NCBI GenBank assembly: GCA_014384565.1
Contig: JACNFO010000040.1
Location: 1 to 47,661 of the forward strand
Direction of reading: 5' to 3'
DNA: 47,661 nucleotides
From: Candidatus Pseudothioglobus aerophilus
Lineage (GTDB): Bacteria; Pseudomonadota; Gammaproteobacteria; PS1; Pseudothioglobaceae
The notes below the pieces were generated by a model that saw only the letters and a program-made list of their open reading frames with translations, was not told the origin of the DNA and ran no database searches. Position 1 is the first letter of the stretch, and the number at the start of each line of letters is the position of its first letter. The position numbers were made by a program, and so were the translations under genes. Below are positions 1,845-29,795 of this stretch, in pieces.

Positions 1845-4800
1845 ATGCACATTAAAAAACCCTCCAAAAATACAAAATGGCAATTCTGGATTGATAGGGG
1901 TGGCACATTTACCGATGTTATAGGACGCAATCCAGCTGGTAAAATTATTACTCATAAACTTTTATCTGAAAATGCAAGGCAATATCCAGATGCTGCAATC
2001 CAAGGTATTCGAGATTTATTAAAATTAAAAAAGGCTGACGACATTCCAATTGGCAATATTGAGTCAATTAAAATGGGCACAACAGTTGCAACAAATGCTC
2101 TTTTAGAGCGAAAAGGAGAAAATACATTACTTGCAATTACAAGTGGGTTTGCAGATATTTTACGAATAGGCTATCAACAAAGACCCGAACTATTTGCACT
2201 TGACATTAATCTGCCAGATATGCTCTACTCAAAAGTTATTGAGATTGAAGAGAGGGTTGATGTTAACGGGAAAATTCTCACAAAACTCGACACGCTTAAA
2301 TCTGAAAAATTACTAAAAAGCGCCTTTAATGAAGGCTTCAAATCAATAGCTATTGTTTTGATTCATGGCTATCGCTATCAAGATCACGAAAATAAATTAA
2401 AGCTTATTGCAAAAGAAATTGGTTTTGAACAAATTTCAGTTAGCCATAATGTAAGCCCTCTGATGAAGATTATTCCAAGAGGCGACACAACAGTGGTTGA
2501 TGCTTATCTTTCACCTATCCTTCGTCGATATGTTACTCAGGTTAAAAATGCTCTAGGATCTGATAAAAACGATTCTGGTAAGTTAAAATTTATGCAATCA
2601 AATGGCGGCCTTACAGATGCAAACTACTTTCAGGGGAAGGATGCAATTTTATCTGGGCCCGCTGGCGGGGTTGTTGGTATGGTTAAGACGGGTGAAAAGG
2701 TGGGGCTTACTAAACTGATTGGTTTTGATATGGGCGGCACATCAACCGATGTATGTCACTACAACGGTGAGTATGAACGAACCCTTGAAACTGAGGTTGC
2801 TGGTGTTAGGCTTAGGTCTCCGATGATGCTAATTAATACTGTTGCTGCAGGCGGCGGCTCTATTCTTCACTTTGATGGATCAAGGTACAGAGTTGGACCA
2901 GATTCTGCAGGTGCGAACCCAGGCCCAGCTTGTTATCGAAATGGCGGCCCTTTAACCGTTACTGATTGCAACGTAATGATTGGTAAACTGAGTCCAGATT
3001 TCTTTCCAAAAGTTTTTGGACCAAATGCAAATCAAAAGCTTGACTCAAGAATTGTCTTTAAAAAATTTAAAGCTCTTGCAAAAGAGATTTCTTTGTCAAC
3101 AAACAAGCTGATTTCTCCAGAGGAAGTCGCAGAAGGATTCTTGTCAATTGCAGTTGAAAGTATGGCAAATGCCATTAAAAAAATATCCGTTCAGCGTGGG
3201 CATGATGTAAGCAACTATGCCCTTTCTTGTTTTGGCGGGGCAGGTGGTCAGCACGCCTGTCTAGTTGCTGACAGTCTTGGGATAAAGCAGATCCATCTTC
3301 ATCAGTATGCTGGCGTTTTATCAGCCTTTGGTATTGGGCTCGCAGACAGTAAAACAATTAATGACTTGGCAGTTGAATTAGTCTTAGATGAAAAGACCAT
3401 TAACTCTCTTTCAAGCAGCTTTAATGAACTAAAAAGTGATGGAAGAAAAGAGCTAATTTCTCAAAACCTAAACGAAAAGCTATTTGACTACTTTAATCGC
3501 GTTTTCCTTCGTTACAACGGCTCTGATAGCTCCTTAGCTGTTAAGTTTGATGATTATAAAGCAATGAAGTCGAGTTTTGAAAATACTCATAAAGCTCGCT
3601 TTGGTTTCATATCTCCTGAAAAAACACTCATCATTGAATCGATACAAGTTGAAGTTTCATGCCAGAGTGAGCAGCTTGATATAGAGGAGATACCTACCCA
3701 AGCACTAAAGACTAAAACCCTAGCCTCAAAGGATGTTTTTATAGGTGGTGAAACACAACAAACTATTTTTTATAACCGCAGTGATATTGCCTCTAATGAC
3801 TTAATTTTTGGGCCGGCTGTTATTATTGAATCGACCTCAACAATTGTAATTGAGCCAGGCTGGCAAGGATACCTTAATGATAAAAATGATCTTATCTTAG
3901 AGAGAATTAAAAAAATAAAAAGAGCGAGTGCGATTGGTACTAATGTAGACCCAGTAATGCTAGAGATCTTTAACAACCTATTCATGAGCGTTGCTGAGCA
4001 GATGGGTACAGTACTTGAAAATACCGCCTCCTCGGTAAATATAAAAGAGCGCTTAGATTTTTCGTGCGCTTTGTTTTCGCCAACAGGCGATCTTGTTGCT
4101 AATGCGCCTCATGTCCCCGTTCATCTCGGCTCAATGAGCGAGTCCATTAAAACAATTATTCGTGAAAATTTTGACACTATGAGTCCAGGCGATGCATTTT
4201 TGATCAATGCTCCTTACAATGGAGGTACCCACTTGCCCGACATCACTCTTATTAAGCCGGTTTATGATGAAAACAGTGAAAAGGTAATTTTTTATGCTGC
4301 AACGCGTGGCCACCATGCCGATATTGGGGGCACAGTCCCTGGCTCTGCTCCAGCAAATTCGAGCCATGTTAAAGAGGAGGGGATTTTAATTGACAACTTT
4401 ACTTTAGTCTCAAAAGGCGTCTTCCTTGAAAAAGAAATCTATGATTTACTTAGCTCAGGGGAATTTCCAGCGCGCAATGTTCAGCAAAATATCGCGGATT
4501 TAAAGGCGCAAGTAGCGGCAGCTGAAAAGGGGTCTCAAGAATTATTAAAAGTTATTAAGAATTATGGGTTAGGTGTTGTCCATGCCTATATGAAACATGT
4601 TCAAGACAATGCTGAGGAATCTGTTCGAAGAGTCTTAGATGTCCTTAGTGACTCCAGCTTTACTTACAAAATGGATGATGGGCATCAGGTTTCAGTTGCA
4701 ATAAGCGTTGACAAAATAGAGCGAAGTGCTACGATCGATTTCACTGGGACTAGCGAACAACACCCCGGCAATTACAATGCTCCAAGCGCGATTTGTTGTG

Positions 4801-5522: not shown

Positions 5523-6674
5523 ATGGCAATTCATTTTACGAATGAAGAGTTCAAAAAAAGACAGAAGAATGTTCTTACAGAACTCAATAAGAAAAACCTT
5601 GATGGCATTTTAATATTTCGCCAAGAGAGTATGTATTATCTGAGCGGCTATGACAGCTTTGGGTATGCCATGTTTCAATGCCTATACCTTGGGGTAGACG
5701 GAAGAATGGTTTTGCTCACGAGGGCTCCAGACCTTGCACAAGCAGAGTTAACGTCAATACTTGATGACATTAGAATTTGGAAAGATGAAGCCGGAATCAA
5801 TCCCACTCAAAATTTAAAGCTTCTATTGAAAGAATTTCATTGTGAAAATAAAAGATTAGGAGTTGAGTACGACAGTGTGGGATTAACTGCTCACAACTAT
5901 CGGCTTTTAGATGGTGCATTAAAAGGATTTTGTTCGCTTCACGACGCATCAAGCTTGGTTAATAAATTGCGCTACATTAAAAGTGAAAAAGAGCTTGAAT
6001 TTATAAGGACTGCAGCAACTCTTGCAGATGATGCTTACAAAGCGGGCATTGAATTGACTCATTCTGGGGCTTTTGAAGGTGATATTTTGGCTGCGATGCA
6101 AGGCGCTGTGTTTAAAGGCGGGGGCACCTATGCTGGAAATGAATTCATAATTGGCTCTGGAGAGCACGCACTACTTTGTAGATATCACTCTGGCCCAAGA
6201 CACCTAAGTGAGGTTGATCAAATGACACTAGAATGGGCTGGGTGTTACCGAAGGTATCATGCCGCTATGATGCGAACTGTTCTTATTGGAGAGGCAACTG
6301 AGCAACACCAAGATATGCATAGAGTTGCAACGCAGGCACTTGAAGCGTGTGAAGATGCTTTAATTCCAGGCAACACACTGGGTGATGTCTTTTTAGCGCA
6401 TTCAAATGTGATGGATAGAGGTGGCTACAAAGATCACCGCCTAAATGCCTGTGGATATTCAATGGGCTGCGCCTATGCCCCAATTTGGGTAGATTATCCG
6501 ATGATATTCGAAGGTAATTCCATGGTAGTTGAGGAGAATATGGTCTTCTTTCTGCATATGATTATTATGAATAGAGATAGCAGGCTTGCAATGTGTCCGG
6601 GCCATACTGTCATTGTTGGTTCTAATGGCGTAGAGAGGTTGAGCAAAATAGCATTAGATTTAGAGGTAAGATAA
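5523..6674 (+). CDS. Creatinase/ectoine-hydrolase-like M24 protein lacking metal ligands
   Basis: A 383-aa pita-bread-fold (M24) protein with the creatinase N-terminal domain (about 1-150) and the peptidase-like domain (about 155-380). The five metal ligands of M24 aminopeptidases are all replaced. The first Asp is E237 (LEWAG), the second Asp is A248 (YHAAMMRT), the His is Y312 (GYSMG), the first Glu is H345, and the last Glu falls at about G360. Creatinase and ectoine hydrolase (DoeA) are known M24 members that work without a metal centre, so this is likely an amidino- or amide-hydrolase rather than a peptidase. H222 (RYHSGP) is a candidate catalytic His by analogy with creatinase. It has a Shine-Dalgarno-like TTGGAG upstream and lies 3 bp before the DUF1989 gene, so the two are almost certainly co-translated. 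Confidence 0.85.
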   Translation: MAIHFTNEEFKKRQKNVLTELNKKNLDGILIFRQESMYYLSGYDSFGYAMFQCLYLGVDGRMVLLTRAPDLAQAELTSILDDIRIWKDEAGINPTQNLKLLLKEFHCENKRLGVEYDSVGLTAHNYRLLDGALKGFCSLHDASSLVNKLRYIKSEKELEFIRTAATLADDAYKAGIELTHSGAFEGDILAAMQGAVFKGGGTYAGNEFIIGSGEHALLCRYHSGPRHLSEVDQMTLEWAGCYRRYHAAMMRTVLIGEATEQHQDMHRVATQALEACEDALIPGNTLGDVFLAHSNVMDRGGYKDHRLNACGYSMGCAYAPIWVDYPMIFEGNSMVVEENMVFFLHMIIMNRDSRLAMCPGHTVIVGSNGVERLSKIALDLEVR

Positions 6675-6677
6675 CGT

Positions 6678-7541
6678 ATGAAAACAATAAAGCAAAATCA
6701 AGAGCCAAGTGATGCCCAAGAGCGGCGTGCAATTAAGCCAGTTATCTGTTACCCAATAGATAATTTACCATCCCACGACTCAAGTCTTTATGCGAACGCA
6801 AGAAGTAAAATGGAGCTTATTGAATCAATAATTATTCCTCCAAGGGATGCTAAAACATTTGAAGTTCCCGCGGGTCATTTTTTTCGAATTGTCAGTGTTG
6901 AGGGACCACAAGTTGGAGATTTAAACCTGTGGAATAGAGACAATATTAGTGAGCACTTTTTCAGTGGAAAAACAAGAGCCCTCCACGGAACTCATGTTAG
7001 CACGGGTGACAAGCTGTACTCAAATCTTCCTTTCCTAAGACCGATGGCAACAATTACTCATGACACTTTAGATTGGTATGGCTGGGATGAAGACGGCGGT
7101 AGCGTTCATGACGTTATTGGAACGCGTTGTGACCCATACACTCATTTGTCTTTGAATAACGAAGAATACCATTTCTGCTGTCATTCAAATTTATGCAGAG
7201 CTCTGTCTAATCATCAACATGCAAAAATTTCTGAAATAGAAATGAAAGTTCATGATGTTCTTAATGTTTTTATGTGCACAGGTTTTACAAAAGAAACGCA
7301 TCAGTACTTTATGAAGGCCAGCCCTGTAAGGCCTGGTGATTTTATTGAGTTTTTCGCAGAAATAGATTTACTAGGTGCTCTATCTGCTTGCCCTGGCGGT
7401 GATTGTAGTTCAAGCCATTCGAGCGATTCAGCAAAATGCTACCCTTTAAAAATAGAAGTTTATAGGCCAAAGGACGATACTCTAAAGCAATGGACATCAC
7501 CATCCTTAAATAAATATTCTAAAAACCATGGATTAAGTTAA
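6678..7541 (+). CDS. DUF1989 (urea-carboxylase-associated) family protein
   Basis: A 287-aa protein whose body (about 50-275) fits DUF1989, the family formerly called urea-carboxylase-associated proteins. Features seen are the VEGPQVGDLNLWN segment, GTRCDPYTH, a Cys-rich patch FCCHSNLC near 166-173, and the signature LSACPGGDC near 235-243. Two DUF1989 proteins, CgdA and CgdB, have been shown to act together as carboxyguanidine deiminase in guanidine breakdown; other members are uncharacterised. Here only one copy is present and no carboxylase or amidolyase gene is adjacent, so the same reaction should not be assumed. The start is 3 bp after the M24 gene. The operon context (hydantoinase, creatinase-like protein) suggests a guanidino, urea or methylhydantoin compound as substrate. 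Confidence 0.82.
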   Translation: MKTIKQNQEPSDAQERRAIKPVICYPIDNLPSHDSSLYANARSKMELIESIIIPPRDAKTFEVPAGHFFRIVSVEGPQVGDLNLWNRDNISEHFFSGKTRALHGTHVSTGDKLYSNLPFLRPMATITHDTLDWYGWDEDGGSVHDVIGTRCDPYTHLSLNNEEYHFCCHSNLCRALSNHQHAKISEIEMKVHDVLNVFMCTGFTKETHQYFMKASPVRPGDFIEFFAEIDLLGALSACPGGDCSSSHSSDSAKCYPLKIEVYRPKDDTLKQWTSPSLNKYSKNHGLS

Positions 7542-8878: not shown

Positions 8879-10513
8879 TTGAAACACATATATAAAATCC
8901 AATCAATTGGTTTGCAAAAAATAATTCCAGGTGTGCTTTTGAGTTTGGTTGTTACATTGGGCTTTTTTAGCCAATCGTCAATAGCTGCTAGTCACAAGGT
9001 TCTAAACTTAACAATACTTCATACAAATGATTTTCATGCTCGCTTTAGGCCTATCAGTAAGTACGATAATAATTGCTCTGCGGAGAGTAATACTGAAGGA
9101 AAATGTTTTGGCGGCTCCGCTCGATTAATTACAGCAATTGAGGATGCACGCTCAAGACATGAAAACACAGTACTTTTAGATGGCGGTGATCAGTTTCAAG
9201 GAACTCTATTCTACAACCTTTATAAGGGTAAGGTTGCAGCAGAAATGATGAACAAGCTTGGTTATGATGGTATGACTGTTGGTAATCATGAGTTCGATGA
9301 TGGGCCAGAAACTCTAAGAGAATTCATGGACGCAGTTAATTTCCCTGTTCTTATGGCAAATGCTGATGTAGATATGGAGCCAGAACTTAAGGGTAGGCTG
9401 CAAAAATCAACGGTCATAGAGAGAGGTGGTCACAAAATTGGACTGATAGGTGTTGTTACTGAGGACGTGGTTGATATTTCGAGTCCAGGCGATAACATTA
9501 TTTTCACGGATGCCATCTCTGCAGTTCAGGCTGAAGTTGACTCTTTAACAGCAGATGGAGTTGGCATAATTATTCTAATGTCGCACTCTTCATATGAGAT
9601 CGATAAAGAGATTGCAGCAAACACAACAGGTGTTGACGTGATCGTTGGTGGTCATGATAATGCTTATTTATCAAACATTAGCGATAGTGCAAAAGGACCT
9701 TACCCAACCGTTGTTAATGGCACTCAAATTGTGCAAGCTTATGCTTATGGTAAATACTTAGGCGAACTCTCAGTTGTCTTTGATGATGAGGGTGAAATTA
9801 TCTCTGCAACAGGTGAGCCAATTACGATTGACGGCTCGGTCAATGAAGACAGCCAAATCGTTGCTCGCTTAGATGAATTAGAGAAGCCAATTACAGATCT
9901 TAAAGAAACTCTTGTTGGAAACATTTCTAGCTCTTTAAATGGCGATAGAGCGGTTTGTCGAGTTCAAGAATGTGACATGGGTAATATGATCACGGATGCC
10001 ATGAGAGCAGCAGGAACTGCAAAAGGTTATTCGATTGCACTTGCGAATTCAGGCGGCATAAGAGCTTCTCTTGATTCTGGCCAGGTTACTCTTGGTGAGA
10101 TAATGACTATCCTTCCTTTTCAAAACACAATGTCAACCTTCAAGGTTACGGGTAAGCAGTTACTAGCAGCAATTGAGAATGGCGTTAGTCAAGTTGAGGA
10201 TGGTTCGGGTCGATTCCCACAAGTTTCTGGAATGCGCTTTTCATTCGACATGTCTAAGCCAGCAAACGAAAGGGTGACTTCAATTGAAATCCAAGAGGGC
10301 AATGGATCTTTTAGTGCTCTTAACCTATACGGAACATACGGTATGGTTTCTAACAACTTTATTCGTGGTGGCGGTGACGGATACAAGATGTTTAGAGCTG
10401 CAACTGACATCTATGACTTCGGTCCTGATCTAGCGGACGTTGTTGTTGATTACATTAAAGCAAACCCAGGATACATTGGTTATACCGATGGCCGAATAAC
10501 GCAAGTTAAGTAA
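8879..10513 (+). CDS. Exported 5'-nucleotidase / metallophosphatase (UshA-like)
   Basis: A 544-aa protein with a signal peptide (hydrophobic core about 15-37, cut near AAS at 36-38) followed by the calcineurin-type metallophosphatase domain: TILHTNDFHARF at 45-56 (D51, H53), LLDGGDQFQG, VGNHEFDDG, and GGHDN. The C-terminal 5'-nucleotidase domain (about 340-520) carries NSGGIRASL and IRGGGDGYKMF. The start is TTG at 8879, chosen because GGAGAG lies 8 bases upstream and the signal peptide needs it. The enzyme would act in the periplasm or at the surface, releasing phosphate and nucleosides from nucleotides, a useful phosphorus source in seawater. The transcript ends at the strong terminator at 10520. 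Confidence 0.9.
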   Translation: MKHIYKIQSIGLQKIIPGVLLSLVVTLGFFSQSSIAASHKVLNLTILHTNDFHARFRPISKYDNNCSAESNTEGKCFGGSARLITAIEDARSRHENTVLLDGGDQFQGTLFYNLYKGKVAAEMMNKLGYDGMTVGNHEFDDGPETLREFMDAVNFPVLMANADVDMEPELKGRLQKSTVIERGGHKIGLIGVVTEDVVDISSPGDNIIFTDAISAVQAEVDSLTADGVGIIILMSHSSYEIDKEIAANTTGVDVIVGGHDNAYLSNISDSAKGPYPTVVNGTQIVQAYAYGKYLGELSVVFDDEGEIISATGEPITIDGSVNEDSQIVARLDELEKPITDLKETLVGNISSSLNGDRAVCRVQECDMGNMITDAMRAAGTAKGYSIALANSGGIRASLDSGQVTLGEIMTILPFQNTMSTFKVTGKQLLAAIENGVSQVEDGSGRFPQVSGMRFSFDMSKPANERVTSIEIQEGNGSFSALNLYGTYGMVSNNFIRGGGDGYKMFRAATDIYDFGPDLADVVVDYIKANPGYIGYTDGRITQVK

Positions 10514-10703: not shown

Positions 10704-11432
10704 ATGAGCGACACGAGTTTATTTTTACAAGCCGGCGATTTTGTTGGCGTTTCATTCTGGATAGTCTCTGTAGCGATGGTTGCTGCTACAGTTTTTTTCT
10801 TTTATGAAGGTATGGCAGTAAATAAAGAGTGGAGACTGTCAATGACAGTTGCAGGTTTGGTAACTTTGGTTGCTGCTGTTCACTATTATTACATGAGAGA
10901 TTACTGGGTAGCTTCGGTTATCGCAGGAACTCCTGATTCTCCAATCGTATATAGATATATCGACTGGTTAATTACAGTTCCATTATTGATGATTGAATTC
11001 TTCATTATTCTTAAAGCAGTAGGCGCTTCAGTATCAACAAACTCTTTTTGGAGATTGTTAGTAGGTACTCTAGTCATGCTTATTGGTGGATTCGCAGGTG
11101 AGGCACATTTAATGTCCGCTTCTATGGGATTTGTCATCGGTATGATAGGTTGGGCAATCATCATCTGGGAAATCTTCGGTGGTGAGGCTAGTAAAGCAGC
11201 TGAGGCAAATGCAAGCGTGAAATCTGCATTTAATGCTCTTAGAATCATTGTTTTAGTAGGCTGGGCTATTTATCCTCTTGGATATGTCTTCGGATATATG
11301 ATGGGAAGTGTAGATGCAGGAACTTTAAACATTGTTTATAACCTTGCAGATTTTGTTAACAAAATCTTATTTGGTTTAATTATTTGGAATGTTGCAGTGA
11401 AATCTAGTGAAGCTGTCAGCAAGAAGAAGTAA
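10704..11432 (+). CDS. Proteorhodopsin, green-tuned proton pump
   Basis: A 242-aa seven-helix microbial rhodopsin. Key residues are present: proton acceptor D87 and T91 (RYIDWLITVP), proton donor E98 (IEFF), H60 near the acceptor, and retinal Schiff-base lysine K220 (ADFVNKILFG). The D/T/E motif marks an outward proton pump. The spectral tuning position, equivalent to residue 105 of the first described proteorhodopsin, is L95, which predicts green absorption. ATG 10704 follows a good AGGGAG ribosome site. The gene stands alone between two terminators. No carotenoid or retinal (crt, blh) genes lie within the window, so the chromophore must be supplied from elsewhere. Membrane location is certain; the in vivo role (light-aided survival) is family knowledge. 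Confidence 0.97.
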   Translation: MSDTSLFLQAGDFVGVSFWIVSVAMVAATVFFFYEGMAVNKEWRLSMTVAGLVTLVAAVHYYYMRDYWVASVIAGTPDSPIVYRYIDWLITVPLLMIEFFIILKAVGASVSTNSFWRLLVGTLVMLIGGFAGEAHLMSASMGFVIGMIGWAIIIWEIFGGEASKAAEANASVKSAFNALRIIVLVGWAIYPLGYVFGYMMGSVDAGTLNIVYNLADFVNKILFGLIIWNVAVKSSEAVSKKK

Positions 11433-11510: not shown

Positions 11511-11630
11511 CTATAACTTATTCCTTCGACACCTTTCACTGCAGTAGAGGACGCTTTCCCAGTCTTTACGCCATTTTTTTCTCCAGGTAAAAGGTTTATT
11601 GCAAGTTTTACAAATCTTTTCAAGTTTCAT
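11511..11630 (-). CDS. DUF2256 small zinc-binding protein, 39 aa
   Basis: The ATG at 11630 overlaps the stop of the photolyase-like gene (ATGA), so the two are translationally coupled. The 39-aa product begins [20 protein letters not shown] and continues with YCSERCRR. Four Cys (C7, C10, C30, C34) form a probable zinc site in a strongly basic context. This matches DUF2256, a roughly 40-50 aa family that typically sits beside deoxyribodipyrimidine-photolyase-related genes. Function is unknown; a DNA-binding or photolyase-accessory role is inferred from the constant neighbourhood and the basic zinc-finger look. It is below usual gene-calling length, so it is easily missed. Confidence 0.85.
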
Positions 11631-13117
11631 CGAGTATGAATCTCAATAAATTTTTCTGCCTCACCAAAGATAAGCTCTTTCCTTTCTTGTGACATTCTGT
11701 CTAATAGTTTTGGTTGAAGGGATAATCTAGGATTAGATTCATAAAACTTTCTATTTTTTTGAATAAACCTCCAATAAAGTCCGTCAACTGTATTACACCA
11801 TTCACCTTTTTTGTAGTTACTCATTTTAAGTAGGTAATTTGAACCGCAAGTGTAAGGCTTAGTTGACATTAGGCCGCCATCAGAGTAGGTTGCCATTCCA
11901 AACACATTTGGAACCATAACCCACTCGGAGGAGTCAATATACATCTCCATAAACCACCTGTATATTTCTTTGGGATCGATTTCACAAAGATTCATCAGGT
12001 TACTTATGACCATAAGTCTAGGGATATGATGGTTGTATCCATCTTGTATCGCAGTAATGATAGAATCATCTAAAGGCGCTATTCCAGTTGAACCTTCGTA
12101 CCAGCTAGAAGTTAACTTACCAGTATGGCCCCAATAGTTTTTATTATATTGGTAATCACCTTTTGTTTGATAAACCCCCCTTATAAACTCACGCCATCCT
12201 AGGACTTGCCTTACAAAACCCTCCAATGAATTCATAGGAATTTGATAGGTATCAGCGCTATCTAGTAAAGTTTGAATAACTTTTTGAGGAGACAAAAGCC
12301 CAACATTCATTGAGGCGCTGATGCAGCTATGAAACAAAAAGTTTTTGCCTTCTAGCATCGCGTCTTCATATATACCAAAATTAGCCATTCTCTGCTTTAA
12401 AAAATCTTCAAATTGCCTCTCAGCATCACTTCGGTTAACTGGAAACCATGGGTTATCTAGACTTCCAGGGTGGTCATTAAAGTGCTGCTGAATGAGGCTA
12501 CAAACTTCATCATGGTATAACGATTGCTTAGTATTTGGTAGGTCAGGAATGAAAGTATTAGCAGGGATTTTTTTTCGATTTTCTGCATCAAAGGACCACT
12601 TACCACCCAAAGGTTTGTTATTTTCATCCATTAAAATATTGAATTTTTTCCTTGCATGCTGATAGAAATTTCCCATTCTAAGAGTCTTTTTATCCTTCAT
12701 TAGAGAATAGAGCTCTTCCCTAGAAAAGAGAAACATTGGCGACTGGTGAACTTGAATCTTAATATTACTCGTAGTCAAGCCATCAAGTAATTCAGATTCA
12801 AAGTCCTTGTCCTCAATTTCAAATACATTTACCTGCTCTATTTTATTATCCAAAACGTAATCAACAAGGCACTCCAGATAAGATTGATTTTTAATTCGAT
12901 CATTTAAGGCAAAGTATCCTACAGAGATGCCCAAAGACTCAAGCTCTTTTTTGTACTCACGCATTGCACATAGAAACAAGTAAAGCTTGAGTTTGTGATG
13001 TTTTTCATAGCTGCAAAGATCAAAATCCTCCGCCATAAAGACCTTATTACAGCCCAGATCTTGAAGTAATTTGGGCTCAAAGAGTTGGTTTCCTAGGATT
13101 ACAAAAATGCTTTTCAT
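11627..13117 (-). CDS. Photolyase-related protein of the prokaryotic (6-4)/FeS-BCP group, cluster ligands partly lost
   Basis: A 496-aa protein of the deoxyribodipyrimidine-photolyase-related (PhrB/CryB) family. Visible are the N-terminal Rossmann-like domain (about 1-140) and the FAD domain with [15 protein letters not shown] (about 302-316), [12 protein letters not shown] (371-382) and [14 protein letters not shown] (402-415). Known members carry a [4Fe-4S] cluster held by four Cys: one in the LCEIDP helix, a YCxxC pair and a later Cys. Here C378 and probably C441 remain, but the pair is replaced (YKKGEW at 435-440), so a normal cluster looks impossible. It may still bind FAD and repair (6-4) lesions, or act as a light sensor. 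It is coupled to the DUF2256 gene and lies next to proteorhodopsin, with its own promoter candidate at 13138-13166. Confidence 0.88.
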
Positions 13118-21154: not shown

Positions 21155-21880
21155 CTAATTTTTATAGTCTGCTTCTTCCTTATCTAAAATTCTTTTTAAA
21201 GCATTAAAATGCATATCTGATGCATCATATTTTTGCCATTGCGCGGCAGTTTTTGTGGCAATCTCGTGCGAGACTTGGTGCAATGCTTTGCCTGTTTGAT
21301 AGGCCCCAATGAGCGTTTCACAGGACCTCTCAAAATAAAAAAGGTCATCAAACGCTTTGGCAACTGTTTTTGCAGCAGTTAGAACGCCATGGTTACCCAT
21401 TAACAATACCGAGTTATTCCCTAATATGGTACTTAATCTCTCTGCTTCTTCACCAAGACCCATGCCGCTATATTCATAATCTATCGATACTTTTTCATAA
21501 AATCGCATAGTATTTTGATCAATCGGCTTCATAGTCTTATCCTCTAAACAAGATAAAATTGTTGCATACTTAGGATGGACATGAAGAATACACCTTGCTT
21601 GAGGATTATTTCTATGCAAAGCACCGTGTATTGCCCATGCCGTTGGGTCAGGAGCGTTTGGCTTGGACATTGTAGATTCATCGTTTGAATCAACAAGAAT
21701 AAGGTCGCTAGCGCAAATCTGTGAGAAGTGCATTCCAATAGGGTTTAGAAGAAATTTTGAGCCATCTTCTGAAACTGCTAAACTAAAATGATTTGCAACG
21801 GCTTCATGCATATTTAGTCTTGCAGCCCAGCGAAAAGCTGCTGCAAGATCCGAGCGTTCTTTTTTAAAGTCATTTGACAT
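21155..21880 (-). CDS. Class II aldolase/adducin family protein, catalytic Glu absent
   Basis: A 241-aa protein with the zinc site of class II aldolases: H100 and H102 in CILHVHP, and H164 in MGNHGVLT. The general acid of fuculose-phosphate aldolase (SSEWxxH) is missing; here the matching stretch PTAWAIH (79-85) has Ala in place of Glu. That is common in adducin-like proteins of this family, which may be decarboxylases, epimerases or unassigned enzymes rather than aldolases. It lies 60 bp after the GntR gene and 39 bp before the aminotransferase, all on the minus strand and probably one transcript. Substrate unknown; the context suggests metabolism of whatever the divergent TTT system imports. 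Confidence 0.82.
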   Translation of the reverse strand: MSNDFKKERSDLAAAFRWAARLNMHEAVANHFSLAVSEDGSKFLLNPIGMHFSQICASDLILVDSNDESTMSKPNAPDPTAWAIHGALHRNNPQARCILHVHPKYATILSCLEDKTMKPIDQNTMRFYEKVSIDYEYSGMGLGEEAERLSTILGNNSVLLMGNHGVLTAAKTVAKAFDDLFYFERSCETLIGAYQTGKALHQVSHEIATKTAAQWQKYDASDMHFNALKRILDKEEADYKN

Positions 21881-21940: not shown

Positions 21941-22663
21941 CTAGGTCTGAGGCGTTCCAATTGTAGTGGTGTAACTGAACATATCCGCTCTTCCTGTTGT
22001 AATTCGGAACTCAACTAGCCCTTTATCTTTTGCATAGGAGTGACGATTTAATATTACAACAGGATCACCTTTATTGATATGAAGAATTTTTGCAGTTTCA
22101 TCATCTGCAATGCCTGCAGTCAAAACTTCTTGAGAGGAGTTAATTTGAGTATCAAATTCTTTAAAAATAACGGCATAAAGAAGGTCAGGTATATGAAGTG
22201 AGGGCTTTTGAAGGCCTTCTACAACGTCAGCAACCCACCAAGATTTTTCGATAATTATAGGATTTTTTTTATCAATATATCCCCTTCTTTCTAGATAAAT
22301 AACATCATCACCCTGATTTATACCTAATTGAAATGAGATCTCAGAGGTCGCTTTAACTTTTTTTCTAATAGGAGTAGTTTTATAAATTCGAATTGACGAT
22401 CCAGTCTGGTTGCCATAACTAAAGAAATTAAAAATACTGTTATCAAATCCATAGTCAGATATATAAGTTCCCTTACCATGATGACGGTAAAGGACTTTAT
22501 TGTGCTCAAGTTTATCAGTAGCTTTTCTGACAGTCCCAATACTTACATTAAGTAATTTTGAAAGTTGCGACTCAGATGGAATTAAATCACCAATAGTGAG
22601 CTCACCACTACTTATTTGACTATTTATATAATCTATAACCGTTTGGTATAGCTTTTTATTCAT
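21941..22663 (-). CDS. GntR-family transcriptional regulator with UTRA ligand domain (HutC type)
   Basis: A 240-aa regulator. Residues about 1-72 are a GntR winged helix-turn-helix with the typical IPSESQLSKLLNVSIGTVRK segment (45-62 core) and the wing HHGKGTYI (about 79-86 region). Residues about 95-230 are a UTRA small-molecule-binding domain (YLERRGYIDKKNPIIIEKSW). It heads the minus-strand unit and is divergent from tctA. Two identical 10-bp palindromes of the HutC-like type sit just downstream of the tctA promoter, and another short palindrome lies near its own start, so it probably represses both directions until the imported substrate or a metabolite binds. Confidence 0.9.
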   Translation of the reverse strand: MNKKLYQTVIDYINSQISSGELTIGDLIPSESQLSKLLNVSIGTVRKATDKLEHNKVLYRHHGKGTYISDYGFDNSIFNFFSYGNQTGSSIRIYKTTPIRKKVKATSEISFQLGINQGDDVIYLERRGYIDKKNPIIIEKSWWVADVVEGLQKPSLHIPDLLYAVIFKEFDTQINSSQEVLTAGIADDETAKILHINKGDPVVILNRHSYAKDKGLVEFRITTGRADMFSYTTTIGTPQT

Positions 22664-22858: not shown

Positions 22859-24352
22859 ATGGAATTTTTAAACTACTTTGATAATGTCTTCACTATTTAT
22901 CATATTGCTCTTCTCGTAGGGGGGACTTTTGCAGGTATTATTCTTGGAGCACTTCCAGGACTAAGTCCAACAATGTCTGTGGCACTTCTTATACCTTTTA
23001 CATTTCATATGAAGCCCGAAAGCGGACTTATATTACTTGGCGCTATGTACACGGCAACTGTTGCTGGAGGAGCAATTAGTGCAATCCTTGTAAACGTTCC
23101 TGGCGCTCCTGCAAACATTGCAACTGCATTGGATGGCCATAAAATGGCGCAGGATGGTAAAGCTAAGAATGCCCTACATTACTGTTTTATTAGTTCATTT
23201 GTTGGCGGTATTTTTGGAGTCTTTATTCTCATATTTTTTACTCCACCACTTGCTGCATTGTCATTAAAGTTTATGTCTACAGAAATGTTTTGGGTTGCAA
23301 TACTAGGTATCACTATTATTGCAACTCTGGACTCAAAATCAGTCATTAAAGGCTTGTTATCAGGATTATTTGGATTAATGCTTGCAACAATTGGAGAACA
23401 CCCTACAAATGCAGTTGAAAGGTTTGTTTTTACGGATCACCTGGAGAGCGGTGTTCATATTGTTGTTGGCTTAATTGGTTTATTTGCAATGCCTCAAGTG
23501 TGGAATCTTTTAGAGAATTTTTACGCTAAGAAGAACCGAGTTTTTTCAGCAACAGGTGATGCAACTTTAACCCAATCTTTTAAACTTGTTTTTAGCAAAC
23601 TCAAAGCCTTATCAATTGGATCTATTATTGGCTCGGTTATTGGAATTATTCCAGGTGCAGGTGGTCAGATTGCAGGTATTGTTGCTTATGACCAATCTAA
23701 AAAGGTAAGCACAAACAGAGAAAACTATGGAAAAGGCGAGCCTGAAGCAATTATTGCTGCTGAGAGTGCTAACAATTCTATGGTCGGCCCTTCCTTAATT
23801 CCTCTTCTTACATTAAGTATTCCTGGAAGTCCTACTGCAGCAGTTCTACTTGGCGGATTATTAATTCATGGGATATTCCCAGGGCACGACATATTTACTA
23901 AAAATCCTGAAGTTATATGGACTTTTATTGATTCACTAATAATCGCACAAATTCTAATGTTGATTATTGGGTTGTTTCTTAGTAGACATAGTAAATGGAT
24001 TATGAAAGTGCCTGATAACTATATGGCAGTTGGAATTTTATTACTTGCTGTATTTGGAACTTACAGTATCCAAAATAACTATTCTGATGTTTTGATTATG
24101 TTTATATTGGGAACTCTAATGTATTTTGGAAGCAAAGCTGGATTCAGTCCAGTTCCAGTTGTATTAGGTTTAATACTGGGAACAATGACAGAGGAAAAAT
24201 TTCTACTTGGTAACCTTATAGGAAATGCCAAGGGAAGCTCTTTTCAACACTTTACATCAGGAACAATCAATATTGTTCTAATTTCGCTTTGTATTGCTTC
24301 GATTGTGTACGGAGTATATTCCAGTAGAAAGTCTAAAAAAATTAAAGCATGA
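22859..24352 (+). CDS. tctA: TTT transporter large membrane subunit (TctA family)
   Basis: A 497-aa protein with about eleven or twelve membrane segments and the family motifs GALPGLSPTMSVALLIPFTF (31-50) and, in the second repeat, IPGAGGQIAGIVAYDQ (about 263-278). TctA forms the transport path of tripartite tricarboxylate transporters, secondary importers for organic acids fed by a periplasmic binding protein. The start ATG at 22859 has only a weak ribosome site. It overlaps tctB by 4 bp. Substrate is not predictable from TctA, but the genes that follow suggest a sulfonated or other small carboxylate. Confidence 0.95.
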   Translation: MEFLNYFDNVFTIYHIALLVGGTFAGIILGALPGLSPTMSVALLIPFTFHMKPESGLILLGAMYTATVAGGAISAILVNVPGAPANIATALDGHKMAQDGKAKNALHYCFISSFVGGIFGVFILIFFTPPLAALSLKFMSTEMFWVAILGITIIATLDSKSVIKGLLSGLFGLMLATIGEHPTNAVERFVFTDHLESGVHIVVGLIGLFAMPQVWNLLENFYAKKNRVFSATGDATLTQSFKLVFSKLKALSIGSIIGSVIGIIPGAGGQIAGIVAYDQSKKVSTNRENYGKGEPEAIIAAESANNSMVGPSLIPLLTLSIPGSPTAAVLLGGLLIHGIFPGHDIFTKNPEVIWTFIDSLIIAQILMLIIGLFLSRHSKWIMKVPDNYMAVGILLLAVFGTYSIQNNYSDVLIMFILGTLMYFGSKAGFSPVPVVLGLILGTMTEEKFLLGNLIGNAKGSSFQHFTSGTINIVLISLCIASIVYGVYSSRKSKKIKA

Positions 24353-24780
24353 ATAGTCAAATCAAACTATCAACCGTTATTGTTACACTTTTTGGTGCTT
24401 TTCTAGTTTATTCATCATTTATTTTAGGTGATTCAGAGAACTATCTCTTTCCAAGACTCATATCTGCAACTATTGCTATTTTAACGATAATGCTTTGGTT
24501 TGAGAAGGGTGAGGCTGACAAATCAACTAATTTTAAAGATTTATTGCCAGGCATAGCAATCGCTTCAGCATTTATCTTACTACTAAAAATACTGGGCTTC
24601 TACTTAGCCTCAATGATTGTATTCTTTACGCTTGTAATGTACTACACCAAGCCTATGGAATCAAAAGACTTTTGGCGTGTGTTACTCATAAAATTGGGTG
24701 TCGCATTTGTGTTTACTTTTGCACTATATGGATTGTTTACACTTCTTTTAAAAGTTCATACACCAGAAGGTTTGTTTTAA
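24349..24780 (+). CDS. tctB: TTT transporter small membrane subunit (TctB family)
   Basis: A 143-aa protein with four membrane segments (about 8-26, 31-48, 65-95 and 110-138), the usual size and layout of TctB. It overlaps tctA by ATGA and is followed after 16 bp by tctC. TctB is the poorly conserved small integral subunit needed for transport. Recognition rests mainly on position and topology, because the sequence itself diverges quickly. Confidence 0.9.
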   Translation: MNSQIKLSTVIVTLFGAFLVYSSFILGDSENYLFPRLISATIAILTIMLWFEKGEADKSTNFKDLLPGIAIASAFILLLKILGFYLASMIVFFTLVMYYTKPMESKDFWRVLLIKLGVAFVFTFALYGLFTLLLKVHTPEGLF

Positions 24781-24796: not shown

Positions 24797-25756
24797 ATGA
24801 AAATTATTAATGTAACTAAAGTGGCCTTGTTAGCTTTAGCATCAATGATGTTATTGCCAGTTCAGGCTGATTATCCTGAAAAGCCAATTGGCGTAATGGT
24901 AGCTTATGGACCTGGTGGAGCGACAGATTTCCAAGCTAGAATTGCAACATTGGCCTCAGGAAATGCGGACCTTATTGGCCAGCCAATCTATATCCTAAAT
25001 AAGCCAGGTGCTGGCGGAAGAACAGGCTGGAATTGGTTTGCAAGTGAGGCTTCAAAAGACGGCTATATGCTTGGTTCGTATAATGTTCCGCACTTTATAG
25101 CGCAGTCCATTGTATTTGATACTAAGTACAATATTAACAACCTTGAGCCAATCGGAAATTGGGGTGCAGATCCTGCAGTATTGATTGTTGGTAAAGACAG
25201 TCCATTTAACACGGTAGGAGAGTTGCTTGCTCACGCTGAAGCTAACCCAGGGGCAGTTACCATTAGTGGTGCTGGAAAATTTGTTGGACACCATATCGCC
25301 TTCTTGCAATTCGCAAAAGCATCTGGTGCAAATCTAACTTATATCCCTGCTTCGGGTGGAGTAGATGCTCTAAGAATGGTTAAAGCAGGCGAAACAGTGG
25401 CTGGCTTTAACAATCTTTCTGACTCTGCAAGAAGTGCAGCTGACCTTAAGATATTAGCTGTTGCTGACCTAGCGAGACATGAGTACTTGCCAGACGTTCC
25501 TACGCTTATGGAAAGTGGTGTTGATGTTGACGATTCAAGTGTCAACTTCCGTGGATTGATGGTACCTTCTGGAACTCCTCAGGATGTTATAGATTACCTT
25601 GCAAGTAGAACTCCTGCAATGTTTAATGAGGGGAAGACACAAGGAAAAATGAAGTCTACTAACTCGCCATCAAGAGTGATGTCTAGAGACGAAGTTATTG
25701 CCATGTGGAATGAAAGACAGGCTTATCTTACTGAGCTCCTAGCGGGTCTCAAGTAA
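24797..25756 (+). CDS. tctC: TTT transporter periplasmic binding protein (TctC/Bug family)
   Basis: A 319-aa protein with a signal peptide (cut after about residue 24, VQA-DYPEKP) and the Bug-family pattern: YPEKPIGVMVAYGPGGATD near 26-44, NKPGAGGRTGWNW near 74-86, and a PSGTPQDVID segment near 258. It has the best ribosome site of the operon (AAAAAGGAGAAAAA), consistent with binding proteins being made in excess. It captures the substrate in the periplasm and delivers it to TctAB. Bug proteins bind carboxylates through backbone contacts, so ligand identity cannot be read from the sequence. Confidence 0.94.
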   Translation: MKIINVTKVALLALASMMLLPVQADYPEKPIGVMVAYGPGGATDFQARIATLASGNADLIGQPIYILNKPGAGGRTGWNWFASEASKDGYMLGSYNVPHFIAQSIVFDTKYNINNLEPIGNWGADPAVLIVGKDSPFNTVGELLAHAEANPGAVTISGAGKFVGHHIAFLQFAKASGANLTYIPASGGVDALRMVKAGETVAGFNNLSDSARSAADLKILAVADLARHEYLPDVPTLMESGVDVDDSSVNFRGLMVPSGTPQDVIDYLASRTPAMFNEGKTQGKMKSTNSPSRVMSRDEVIAMWNERQAYLTELLAGLK

Positions 25757-25836: not shown

Positions 25837-28746
25837 ATGACTATTAAACAAAAATCATCAATAGCAAGTATTGTTATTGAGGCAAGAAAAGCTCAATCAA
25901 TTATTAACGATTATTCTCAAGAGCAGATTGATGAATTAATTCTGGCGGTTGCCTGGGAAGTAATTCAGCCCGAAAATAATCAAAATCTTTCTGAGATGGC
26001 AGTAAAACATACTGGTCTTGGAAATGTTGAAGACAAGATGAGAAAAAATCGACGAAAAACTATTGGACTCCTCAGAGATCTAAAAGGTGTTGAAACGGTT
26101 GGAGTTATTAACCAAGATATTAAAAAAGGCCTAACTGAGATTGCAAGACCAGTTGGTGTGGTTGGCGCAATTGTGCCCTCAACAAACCCTATTGCAACCC
26201 CTTTAAATAAAGTAATTAATGCACTTAAGTGTAGAAATGCAGTCATATTGGCGCCATCACCAAAAGGCGCATTGGTTTGTAGTAGAGTGGTTGAGCTAAT
26301 GCAAAAAGCCATTCAGCGTATTGGAGCACCTAAAAATATCGTTCAATCATTACCTGAGCCAATCAGCAAAGATGATACGAACGAATTATCAAAACTTGTT
26401 GATTTAATTGTGGCGACTGGATCACAAAATAATATACAAAGAGCATTACAAAGTGGTACCCCAACGCTAGGTGTTGGAGTTGGTAATGTTCCTGCAATAG
26501 TCGACGATAGCGCTAATTTAGATGAAGCATCTCACAAAATTATGACTTCAAAGACTTTTGATAATGCAACAAGTTGCTCTTCAGAGAACAGTATTATTGT
26601 TCTAGATAGTATTTATGATGCACTAATTAAATCTCTTGAAAAAGAGGGTGGCTCATTGTTAAATTCAAAGGAAAAAGCTGTCCTTGCAAAAAACATGTGG
26701 AGTAAAGAAGGCGTCATAAACCGAAATATAATTGCAAAAAAATCTAATGAAATTGCTTCTTTTGCAGGACTTAATGAGAAACATATGAACTCTAAGTTCC
26801 TTATGGTTGAAGAAGAAAATGTTGGCAAAGATTACCCATTTTCAATGGAAAAACTCTCACCCGTTTTGGCAGTTTATAGAGCCAAAAATTTTGATCATGC
26901 CGTTGAAATTGCAACTACCATTCTTGACAATCAAGGTAAAGGACATTCTTGCAGTATTCATAGTGAAAATAAAGACAATATTCTTAGGCTTGGAAATGAG
27001 TTACCTGTTTGCAGAGTTATAGTAAATCAAGCGCATTGTTTTGCAACTGGTGGTAACTTTGATAATGGGCTTCCATTTTCATTATCGATGGGCTGCGGAA
27101 CATGGGGCAATAATATTACAGATGAAAACTTAAATTATAAGCACTACCTAAATATAACCAAAATAGTTAAAACCATTAAAACTGATGAGCCCTCGGAAGA
27201 TGATATCTTTTCAAGTTACTGGGAAAAATATTCATTAACCCCATCTACGATTACAGAGCTGGTTAATCAATTTGCAGAAACTACGCCAAATAAAAACTAT
27301 TTGATTGATGCAGATTTAGACCTTCATATTTCATATGGTCAGCTTAAAAAAGATATTTTGAAGTTAGGTATTTTTTTTCAGCAAAACAATATTCATGCGC
27401 GTGATAAAGTTGGGTTTATGCTTGATAATGGCTATGCATCTTCACTTCTTTTTATTGCGGCGATGTATCATGGCATAACAATTGTGCCATTAAATGTGCT
27501 GGCAGGAGCTAAACAAATTAAGTACACAATAGAACACTCAGAGTGCAAGCTAATACTCGCCTCTAAGATCTATATTGATAAGTTCAGTGATATTCTTGAA
27601 GCCTCAAATGTCCAAGTTATTTGCCATGAAAAAGCGAATGACTTAGAAATTAATAACCATAAAATTGTTAATTCAATTACTAAGACTTTATTATCAGATA
27701 CGCCGGCAGTATTGATTTATACCTCGGGCACAACTGGCGTGCCGAAAGGGGTTCTGCTTTCCCACAAAAATGTTTTAGCTGGAGGCAGAAACACCGCTTT
27801 AGCGCATGAAATTAATAAAAATGATGTATCTTTTTGCGTACTGCCTCTTTACCATATTAATGCTGAAATGGTGTCCATTGCAAGCGCCCTAGTAAGTAAT
27901 AGCTGCGTTGTTATTGTTAGCAAGTTTAGTGTTACTAATTTTTGGAATATTATTGACAAATATAAATGCACCTGGTTTAGTGTTGTTCCTACTATTATTA
28001 ATTATCTACTTAATGATAATTTTGATATAAGTTCATTGAATCTTAAAAATCTTCGCTTTGGTAGGTCTGCATCAGCACCTCTTTCTCCTGAGGTCCATAA
28101 AAAATTTGAAAAAGTATTTAATGTTAGAATTATTGAAACAATGGGCCTCACTGAAACGTCAGCTCAAATCCTTTCAAATCCTATGGATCAATGTAAGCAT
28201 GGCTCTGCAGGAAGGCCTTATGGCAATGAAGTTAAAATTATAGATGACTCTGGAAATTACCTAGCTTTTGGAAACACTGGTGAACTAGTGATCAAAGGCG
28301 ATAACGTTCTTTTAAAGTATTTTAAAAACGAAGAGGCGACAGCAGAGGCTTTTAATAAAGATGGTTATTTTTTGACTGGTGACCTTGGTGTTGAAGATGA
28401 GGATGGTTTCTTTTTTATAACTGGCAGAAAGAAAGAGTTAATTATTAAAGGTGGAGAAAACATATCACCTAGAGAGATAGATGATACGCTTTATAAGCAT
28501 AATGCCGTATTGGAGGCATGTACATTTGGCATTAAAGATGAAAACTATGGTGAAGAAATTTCAGCTTGTGTTTTTTTGAAAGATAATTTAATTGTTAATG
28601 AGGAAGAATTACTTGCACTTTGTACAGCAGATCTTGGAGAATATAAGACGCCTAGTCAAATAATTTTTGTTGATAAGCCACTACCTAAAGGTCCATCTGG
28701 AAAAATTCAACGTCTTAAAATCGCAAGTCACTATAGTCATACCTAA
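25837..28746 (+). CDS. SauS-like acylating aldehyde dehydrogenase fused to AMP-forming CoA ligase
   Basis: A 969-aa two-enzyme fusion. Residues about 1-450 are a CoA-acylating aldehyde dehydrogenase; the nucleophile is C247 in SKTFDNATSCSSENS, a motif I associate with sulfoacetaldehyde dehydrogenase SauS, with GVVGAIVPSTNP at 107-118 and GVGVGNVPAIVDD at 212-224. Residues about 465-969 are an adenylate-forming ligase: P-loop YTSGTTGVPKG (628-638), ETMGLTET (767-774), TGDLG (847-851), GRKKELIIKGGENISPRE (863-880) and the catalytic Lys K956 (GPSGKIQR). In Cupriavidus necator, SauT (ligase) and SauS convert sulfoacetate through sulfoacetyl-CoA to sulfoacetaldehyde; here both would be in one chain and could pass the CoA ester directly. 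A TTT importer upstream and Pta downstream fit that path. Another carboxylate substrate remains possible. Confidence 0.88.
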   Translation: MTIKQKSSIASIVIEARKAQSIINDYSQEQIDELILAVAWEVIQPENNQNLSEMAVKHTGLGNVEDKMRKNRRKTIGLLRDLKGVETVGVINQDIKKGLTEIARPVGVVGAIVPSTNPIATPLNKVINALKCRNAVILAPSPKGALVCSRVVELMQKAIQRIGAPKNIVQSLPEPISKDDTNELSKLVDLIVATGSQNNIQRALQSGTPTLGVGVGNVPAIVDDSANLDEASHKIMTSKTFDNATSCSSENSIIVLDSIYDALIKSLEKEGGSLLNSKEKAVLAKNMWSKEGVINRNIIAKKSNEIASFAGLNEKHMNSKFLMVEEENVGKDYPFSMEKLSPVLAVYRAKNFDHAVEIATTILDNQGKGHSCSIHSENKDNILRLGNELPVCRVIVNQAHCFATGGNFDNGLPFSLSMGCGTWGNNITDENLNYKHYLNITKIVKTIKTDEPSEDDIFSSYWEKYSLTPSTITELVNQFAETTPNKNYLIDADLDLHISYGQLKKDILKLGIFFQQNNIHARDKVGFMLDNGYASSLLFIAAMYHGITIVPLNVLAGAKQIKYTIEHSECKLILASKIYIDKFSDILEASNVQVICHEKANDLEINNHKIVNSITKTLLSDTPAVLIYTSGTTGVPKGVLLSHKNVLAGGRNTALAHEINKNDVSFCVLPLYHINAEMVSIASALVSNSCVVIVSKFSVTNFWNIIDKYKCTWFSVVPTIINYLLNDNFDISSLNLKNLRFGRSASAPLSPEVHKKFEKVFNVRIIETMGLTETSAQILSNPMDQCKHGSAGRPYGNEVKIIDDSGNYLAFGNTGELVIKGDNVLLKYFKNEEATAEAFNKDGYFLTGDLGVEDEDGFFFITGRKKELIIKGGENISPREIDDTLYKHNAVLEACTFGIKDENYGEEISACVFLKDNLIVNEEELLALCTADLGEYKTPSQIIFVDKPLPKGPSGKIQRLKIASHYSHT

Positions 28747-28806: not shown

Positions 28807-28833
28807 ATGATGAACTTAATTAAGGCAGAATAA
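28807..28833 (+). CDS. Possible 8-aa upstream ORF overlapping the pta start
   Basis: ATGATGAAC and so on encodes MMNLIKAE and ends in TAA, whose last base is the first base of the pta ATG (TAATG). Such overlap can couple translation. It has no clear ribosome site of its own, so it may be chance. Confidence 0.2.
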   Translation: MMNLIKAE

Positions 28834-29795
28834 TGGCGTTATTAGAAGACCTATCCAACAAGGCTAAAGCGAAATTTCCACGTATCTTATTACCCGAATC
28901 TAGTGACTCTCGAGTCCTAGAGGCGGCTCACATTCTGTCGAGTCAAAAAATTGCTCAAATTGTACTTTTTGACATAGATTCAGACAAGTTTCTGGGTATA
29001 GAGACAATTAACCGTGAAAACGAAGATTTGAAGGTCAAGTACGCCCAAACCTTGTTTGAAATAAGAAAGCACAAGGGTGTTACTTTAGAGGTTGCTCTTG
29101 AAATGATATCAAACCCAACTGTATTTGCAATGATTGCCCTTCATAGAGGTGATGTTGATGGCGTTGTTACGGGTGCTATAACTCCAAGCCAGGAGGTTCT
29201 TAGTAATGCACTTCGAATTATTGGCGTTTCTAAAGGCAGTAAACTAGTTTCGAGTTTGTTCCTAATGGCGTTTGATCAGAATCACAAAATGTATGGTGAA
29301 AATATGGTTTTTTCAGATTGTGCAATGAATATTAATCCCAACTCTGAAGAGCTTGTAGAAATAGCCCAAAGCGCCTATGAAACGGCAAAATTGTTTTTAG
29401 AGGAAAAACCTAAGATGGCTATGCTTTCATTTTCAACAAATCAAAGTGCCAATCACGCAGAGGTTGATAAAGTAAGAGATGCAACTGATATTCTAAAGTC
29501 TAGGCTTGCAGGTGCTCAAATAATTGGAAACATTCAGCTTGATGCTGCTCTCGATAACGAGGTCTTAAGAATTAAATATCCTGAGGCTTCATTTACACCA
29601 CCTGCAAACGTCTTAATTTTTCCAAACCTTGATGCTGCAAACATTGGCTATAAGCTGGTTCAGAGATTTTCAGGAGCCAAAGCAATTGGCCCAATTCTAC
29701 AGGGGCTGGCAAAACCAGTTAATGACTTGTCTAGGGGTTGTAGCGTTGATGAGATTGTTAATACTGTGGTAATTACTGCAAATCAATGTAGCTAG
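28833..29795 (+). CDS. pta: Phosphate acetyltransferase (short, single-domain form)
   Basis: A 320-aa protein matching the catalytic domain of phosphotransacetylase: LLPESSDSRVLEAA (20-33), DGVVTGAITPS near 108-118, FSDCAMNINP near 158-167 and a C-terminal DLSRGCSVDEIVN near 300. The long N-terminal DRTGG-type domains of the E. coli Pta are absent. It interconverts acetyl phosphate and acetyl-CoA. This short form is the one commonly found with Xsc in sulfonate degradation, and no acetate kinase gene is adjacent, which points to use of acetyl phosphate made by Xsc. Convergent with the ETF-QO gene, stops 2 bp apart, without a terminator. Confidence 0.9.
   Translation: MALLEDLSNKAKAKFPRILLPESSDSRVLEAAHILSSQKIAQIVLFDIDSDKFLGIETINRENEDLKVKYAQTLFEIRKHKGVTLEVALEMISNPTVFAMIALHRGDVDGVVTGAITPSQEVLSNALRIIGVSKGSKLVSSLFLMAFDQNHKMYGENMVFSDCAMNINPNSEELVEIAQSAYETAKLFLEEKPKMAMLSFSTNQSANHAEVDKVRDATDILKSRLAGAQIIGNIQLDAALDNEVLRIKYPEASFTPPANVLIFPNLDAANIGYKLVQRFSGAKAIGPILQGLAKPVNDLSRGCSVDEIVNTVVITANQCS

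Follow-up and report, generated by a model that had tools for sequence, protein, structure and literature searches.

We analysed a 47,661-nucleotide contig of Candidatus Pseudothioglobus aerophilus (GenBank assembly GCA_014384565.1, contig JACNFO010000040.1, positions 1 to 47,661; hereafter the window) and found that one of its genes, here called sauST, joins an acylating aldehyde dehydrogenase of the SauS family to an AMP-forming coenzyme A (CoA) ligase of SauT affinity in one chain. The protein is very probably a single-chain sulfoacetate reductase that feeds Xsc, Pta and AprAB-Sat. The gene (25,837–28,746, + strand) translates as a single open frame of 969 amino acids with no internal stop, and the one frame read on the opposite strand has stops throughout. 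The dehydrogenase comes first (matched over residues 6–465) and the ligase second (478–956), leaving almost no spacer, and Pfam assigns Aldedh to residues 5–403, AMP-binding to 478–829 and AMP-binding_C to 880–956. By homology, the SauS half (residues 1–465; 25,837–27,231, + strand) would be an acylating sulfoacetaldehyde dehydrogenase and the SauT half (residues 466–969 plus the stop codon; 27,232–28,746, + strand) a sulfoacetate--CoA ligase. An earlier note, made from the letters alone, had described a 969-residue fusion of CoA ligase and dehydrogenase at this place, with C247 in the context FDNATSCSSEN and a ligase half carrying adenylation motifs. The frame and the Pfam domains of both enzymes bear out the first point, and the cysteine and its context are found in the translation. 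The ligase half contains YTSGTTGVPKG, ETMGLTET, TGD, GGENISPREID and PKGPSGKIQR, which we take to be the adenylation motifs, in addition to the AMP-binding and C-terminal domains.

The fusion is conserved and under purifying selection. A complete fusion above the SauS cut-off is present in 11 of the 29 genomes of the genus, including the window's own, and the other ten full-length proteins are 75–97% identical to that of the window. Two more genomes carry partial genes, one cut by a contig end (G016) and one of which the start of a contig leaves the final 94 residues (G006). Comparing sauST with its counterparts in G008 and G024 gave nonsynonymous substitution rates (dN) of 0.012 and 0.028 and synonymous rates (dS) of 0.141 and 0.314, respectively, for a dN/dS of ~0.09, and the 30 junction codons showed a pattern of the same kind, with several dS values saturated. 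Because the frame is open at full length in the ten other genomes, 11 in all, and dN/dS is this low, a fusion produced by chance, frameshift or assembly slip is ruled out. It is also improbable that the fused frame yields two proteins by an internal start or proteolysis, which would leave the fusion without mechanistic meaning. An in-frame ATG, GTG or TTG falls within aligned residues 457–475 in five of the 11 fused genes (G009, G005, G010, G025 and G027), where translation might therefore begin internally, but the other six, including the window's, have none between residues 440 and 488, and the frame is open in all 11 genomes with the full gene.

The dehydrogenase half belongs to SauS. Residues 6–465 scored 698.9 bits against NF047625, the model for acylating sulfoacetaldehyde dehydrogenase SauS with a curated equivalog cut-off of 600, while the next models, AdhE (388.3 bits; cut-off 951) and acetylating acetaldehyde dehydrogenase (357.3 bits; cut-off 620.1), stayed far below theirs. 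In a 90-row tree, two outgroup rows of which carried copying slips, the 11 fused halves formed one clade (support 100) within the SauS clade (support 98). In a second tree, built with more care from 37 rows (5 fused, 26 separate and 6 others), SauS was split from AdhE, SucD and acetaldehyde dehydrogenase with support 100/99. With these five of the 11 fused rows, a clade shared with SucD, acetaldehyde dehydrogenase or AdhE was rejected by the approximately unbiased (AU) test (p = 1.3e-5, 2.3e-6 and 3e-52, respectively), so that the comparison proposed in the earlier note places the dehydrogenase half with SauS and excludes each of the three other groupings at p ≤ 1.3e-5. We also defined 25 SauS-diagnostic columns, whose residue is constant in ≥90% of 68 separate SauS rows and does not occur in six outgroup rows; 23 of them are retained in all 11 fused rows, and columns 173 and 201 vary.

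In the tree of the ligase half, the 11 fused rows formed one clade (support 100) and grouped with eight separate SauTs (support 98), mostly gammaproteobacterial and seven of them with Tct genes at the locus; TctC adjoins loci L069 and L105. All of these are nested in a clade of SauTs encoded beside SauS (62 rows, 51 separate and 11 fused; support 98). We considered whether the ligase half is an oxalate--CoA ligase and rejected this identity, because two such ligases fell outside the SauT clade (support 98), at a point where the program warns of long branches meeting.

The same genome encodes enzymes for the steps that would follow. An xsc gene, for which the earlier note had proposed to search, is present at C56:965–2,698 (1010 bits; cut-off 676.4), and xsc is above its cut-off in 10 of the 11 genomes with the full fusion. 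Among the best 80 of at least 569 confirmed candidate SauS loci from a scan of genome contigs, 17 have an Xsc match of >500 bits within the examined flanks. One relative (G007, locus L052) carries an island of xsc, a DUF924 gene, malate synthase G, AceK, isocitrate lyase and IclR, with two short unassigned frames among them, followed by the sauST cassette and pta; the glyoxylate-bypass genes between xsc and the cassette fit growth on acetyl-CoA. A single contig (C58) of the window's genome carries together AprA (999.1 bits; cut-off 641.75), AprB (193; 135.65) and Sat (504.2; 387). A molybdopterin oxidoreductase that Azospirillum encodes close to xsc, and that we label SoeA-like, gave no more than a partial match in the window's genome (24%, 51.8 bits). 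With AprA, AprB and Sat above their cut-offs and only this partial match to the alternative enzyme, sulfite may be oxidized via adenosine 5'-phosphosulfate with formation of ATP.

Taken as a pathway, the TctABC transporter would import sulfoacetate, and the C-terminal half of SauST would convert sulfoacetate, ATP and CoA to sulfoacetyl-CoA, AMP and pyrophosphate. The N-terminal half would then reduce sulfoacetyl-CoA with NAD(P)H to sulfoacetaldehyde through C247, freeing CoA for another cycle. Xsc, whose gene lies in a taurine-type cluster in another part of the genome, would turn sulfoacetaldehyde and phosphate into acetyl phosphate and sulfite, the adjacent Pta would make acetyl-CoA from acetyl phosphate, and AprAB with Sat would oxidize sulfite and return ATP. 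The substrate, the direction of the reaction, the cofactor and the import step in this scheme are predictions. The earlier reading, in which the fusion reduces a carboxylate, probably sulfoacetate, to its aldehyde, gains support from the xsc gene in the genome and from the place of the dehydrogenase half in SauS, with sulfoacetate as the predicted substrate. A fused chain would fix the two activities at a 1:1 ratio and would perhaps allow local passing of the CoA ester. A fuller version of the scheme is possible and more tentative: SauST would be a CoA-dependent single-chain carboxylate reductase in which sulfoacetyl-CoA moves from the ligase site to the dehydrogenase site, and its plug-in cassette might allow part of a genus of sulfur oxidizers to use one C2 sulfonate as a source of carbon (by way of Xsc, Pta and the glyoxylate bypass) and also of lithotrophic energy (from sulfite, through AprAB-Sat).

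Several results weigh against a sulfoacetate reductase. The genome's xsc has as neighbours a MocR-type regulator, a class III aminotransferase and an alanine dehydrogenase that scored 512 bits against a cut-off of 391.85 (locus L042, 315–6,836), a combination that we take to be a taurine cluster; in such a cluster xsc is useful without sulfoacetate, so its presence alone is no proof. Both xsc and pta also occur in members of the genus that lack SauST and so are not specific to sulfoacetate. Within the genus, xsc accompanies the full fusion in 10 of 11 genomes and occurs in 11 of the other 18 (p = 0.11, not significant); counting the two partial genes, the comparison becomes 12 of 13 against 9 of 16 (p = 0.044). 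One genome that is 70% complete, G023, has the fusion and no xsc above the cut-off; xsc is present in G024, its near twin in the tree. When the fused dehydrogenase rows were constrained with all outgroups at once, the AU test gave no rejection (p = 0.181), and they may therefore be the first branch within SauS. No solved chain matched by sequence to SauST bears the name SauS, and for the ligase half the closest solved structures are those of oxalate--CoA ligases; the 25 NCBIfam models listed for this half all stayed below their cut-offs.

The structural matches raise the alternative of a different small dianionic carboxylate as substrate, with the fusion converting, for instance, oxalate through oxalyl-CoA to glyoxylate for the glyoxylate enzymes that stand near the cassette in some relatives, such as the malate synthase G and isocitrate lyase of L052. 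We consider this quite improbable, given a dehydrogenase half above the SauS equivalog cut-off with its diagnostic columns kept, the position of the two oxalate ligases outside the SauT clade (on long branches) and the recurrence of Xsc near SauS. Action of the same chemistry on a different sulfonated carboxylate, such as a C3 sulfonate, is very unlikely: the substrate is assigned by homology only, and tripartite tricarboxylate transporters (TTT), the class to which TctABC belongs, are broad, but feeding Xsc and Pta, both present, requires sulfoacetaldehyde as the product, and the family and diagnostic columns match SauS. The taurine-type cluster with its xsc would fit a fusion running in the oxidative direction, turning taurine-derived sulfoacetaldehyde into sulfoacetate for excretion. 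Against this, the ligase is of the AMP-binding type, the reversal of which is unfavourable, and a TTT system is an uptake type and no exporter, so that we regard oxidation as highly unlikely. An oxidative route of this kind, the SqwD/SqwKL branch with an ADP-forming ligase, has been described (PMC12890257).

In the window, sauST is one member of a cassette, with TctABC directly upstream and pta directly downstream. A divergent GntR/UTRA gene (21,941–22,663, − strand; PF00392, PF07702), which adjoins the cassette in relatives, presumably encodes its regulator. It is followed by the TctA-type large membrane subunit (22,859–24,352, + strand; PF01970), the TctB-type small membrane subunit (24,349–24,780, + strand; PF07331) and the TctC-type substrate-binding protein (24,797–25,756, + strand; PF03401). 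The last holds the same position in relatives and is presumed to be the sulfoacetate receptor, with a putative role of the SauXYZ type for all three. The order GntR-TctA-TctB-TctC-SauST-Pta is complete in eight of the ten loci of relatives that have the whole fusion. The contigs of L047 and L049 end at TctA, so these two loci begin with that gene, and L054 breaks off inside SauST. In four relatives (G028, G011, G013 and G015), the same flanking genes, an aldolase and, across the site, Pta-ETF-QO, have no cassette between them. In G017, IclR lies directly before pta, while in L052 and, judged by gene order and size, in L051, L053 and L054, IclR is followed by the cassette. A 5' remnant of gntR, 192–203 bases long, persists in cassette-less G015, G011 and G013, which points to loss of the cassette rather than late gain in these three; the cassette-less locus of G028 has no such remnant.

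The downstream gene (28,833–29,795, + strand) is a phosphate acetyltransferase (TIGR00651, 328.8 bits; cut-off 311.2), the expected user of the acetyl phosphate made by Xsc; this genome, which is 91% complete, has no other PTA_PTB match. The argument that Pta is the next gene holds as far as position goes, but it is not special to the fusion. We found pta in 23 of the 29 genomes of the genus, including relatives without SauST, three of which have it 1.5–8 kb from xsc. It therefore marks the Xsc route and not sulfoacetate itself, and the fusion cassette plugs in before a pta that is part of the genus's Xsc route.

Three of the cassette-less relatives show a further rearrangement at this place (L187, ~5,853–6,797; L182, ~9,022–9,962; L183, ~3,753–4,690). 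Some 66 codons from the start of gntR run in frame into a class II aldolase gene, giving a frame of 315 amino acids whose helix-turn-helix part has a dN/dS of ~0.09–0.14 among the three; the counterparts in the window are 21,155–21,880 and 21,941–22,663. To our knowledge, an aldolase would be an unusual second domain for a regulator of the GntR type.

The fusion appears confined to the genus in the samples that we covered, which may include one genome more than once across the contig, plasmid, class and phylum sets. Fused and separate genes were called by tblastn in the contig scan, where the same best 80 of at least 569 loci comprised 2 fused, 65 with separate neighbouring sauS and sauT and 13 without a nearby SauT match. 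Both fused records (Candidatus Thioglobus sp. REDSEA-S12_B1 and an uncultured gamma proteobacterium) are copies of genomes of the window's genus. Candidatus Thioglobus MED-G25 (L132) has separate sauS and sauT genes at 54% identity, so the name Thioglobus alone does not predict the fusion. None of eight genomes from other genera of the family (G029–G036) has it. Sixteen of 369 genomes in a class sample and 6 of 398 in a phylum sample were above the SauS cut-off, and in both samples the only fused gene was the window's own (G000), the others lying in frames of 478–515 (n = 15) and 472–541 (n = 5) amino acids. Nine plasmids opened of 3,241 matching records gave six separate sauS-sauT pairs and three loci with another partner; in three roseobacter plasmids, the separate pair stands behind TctABC. 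Over all loci examined, the 85 SauS-SauT neighbour pairs outside the fusion are separate genes, and 18 loci lack a nearby SauT match, five of these having a SauC-like partner and one a CoA transferase. The six plasmid sauS-sauT regions (L057–L062) each show a 4-base overlap of the two annotated genes, and such an overlap is possible by start codon in 31 of the 85 separate pairs, five of which yielded no start codon. The simplest origin of the fusion would be loss of the stop codon in an overlapping, coupled sauS-sauT pair.

The locus with a CoA transferase is from the haloarchaeon Haloterrigena sp. KLK7 (L065, 7,929–10,595), where a SauS homologue stands behind a TTT transporter and is followed by the transferase, with no ligase. 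This may be a third way to sulfoacetyl-CoA.

Among known systems, the closest in activity is that of Cupriavidus necator H16, whose SauS and SauT were reportedly described by Weinitschke et al. in 2010. The same two activities, sulfoacetate--CoA ligase and acylating sulfoacetaldehyde dehydrogenase, are expected of SauST. The chemistry is already known, and the fusion is a new form of it. The systems differ in that C. necator uses two proteins and the single-gene major facilitator superfamily transporter SauU (PMC12625764), whereas SauST is one chain with TctABC. Clusters in sponge symbionts that combine a TTT transporter with sauS and sauT follow the same plan, which is treated as a hybrid type and proposed to serve sulfoacetate; the main text of that paper nowhere mentions a fusion (PMC12625764). 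The earlier note knew of no fused form, and we likewise found none in the open-licence papers searched. In Bilophila wadsworthia, the SauS-SauCD pair resembles SauST in coupling a SauS-type dehydrogenase to a CoA ligase, as does SqwD-SqwKL (both routes described in PMC12890257), and a putative TTT transporter, SauXYZ, is a further likeness (PMC12625764). Both pairs differ from SauST in having a two-part ADP-forming ligase and in the use made of the reaction, since Bilophila takes sulfoacetaldehyde to isethionate and SqwD-SqwKL runs in the oxidative direction (PMC12890257).

Two other multidomain enzymes invite comparison. AdhE, too, is a longer protein and has a related acylating aldehyde dehydrogenase as its first half; its second half is an alcohol dehydrogenase, and a clade of the fused dehydrogenase half with AdhE was rejected, as reported above. 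Carboxylic acid reductases likewise use ATP and NADPH to take a carboxylate to its aldehyde in a single chain, but they have a covalent phosphopantetheine carrier and a reductase of a different fold. We rejected membership of SauST in this group because Pfam shows Aldedh, AMP-binding and AMP-binding_C only; with these domains alone, the enzyme presumably uses free CoA.

A natural fusion is independent evidence that two enzymes act in sequence, and it therefore supports the assignment of SauT and SauS, which otherwise rests on few organisms in the open-licence papers searched. The gene could serve as a marker of sulfoacetate use in Thioglobus-type plankton, presumably SUP05/Arctic96BD-19, and relatives that carry the cassette can be compared with relatives that lack it. 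If the sulfite from Xsc enters AprAB-Sat, one sulfonate would support both heterotrophy and lithotrophy and would link the organic and inorganic sulfur cycles directly. Another member of the clade, Ca. Thioglobus autotrophicus, is described as unable to use taurine as a reduced sulfur source (PMC6509183), and taurine-to-sulfite genes are described as rarer in the rubisco-bearing lineages studied in PMC12168267.

A few minor observations concern related genes. In G010, a second SauS-like dehydrogenase (L056, 10,709–12,115; 434.7 bits, under the cut-off of 600) lies beside pieces of an Xsc-like enzyme and perhaps belongs to a related route for another aldehyde. The DUF924 protein adjoins xsc in L042 as it does in L052. 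A 'putative sulfate exporter family transporter' adjoins xsc in Paracoccus sp. MA (L059), and the window encodes a PF03601 family protein at 746–1,753; we take the two to be one family. Elsewhere in the window, a bacteriorhodopsin-like protein adjoins a photolyase-related protein (10,704–11,432 and 11,627–13,117).

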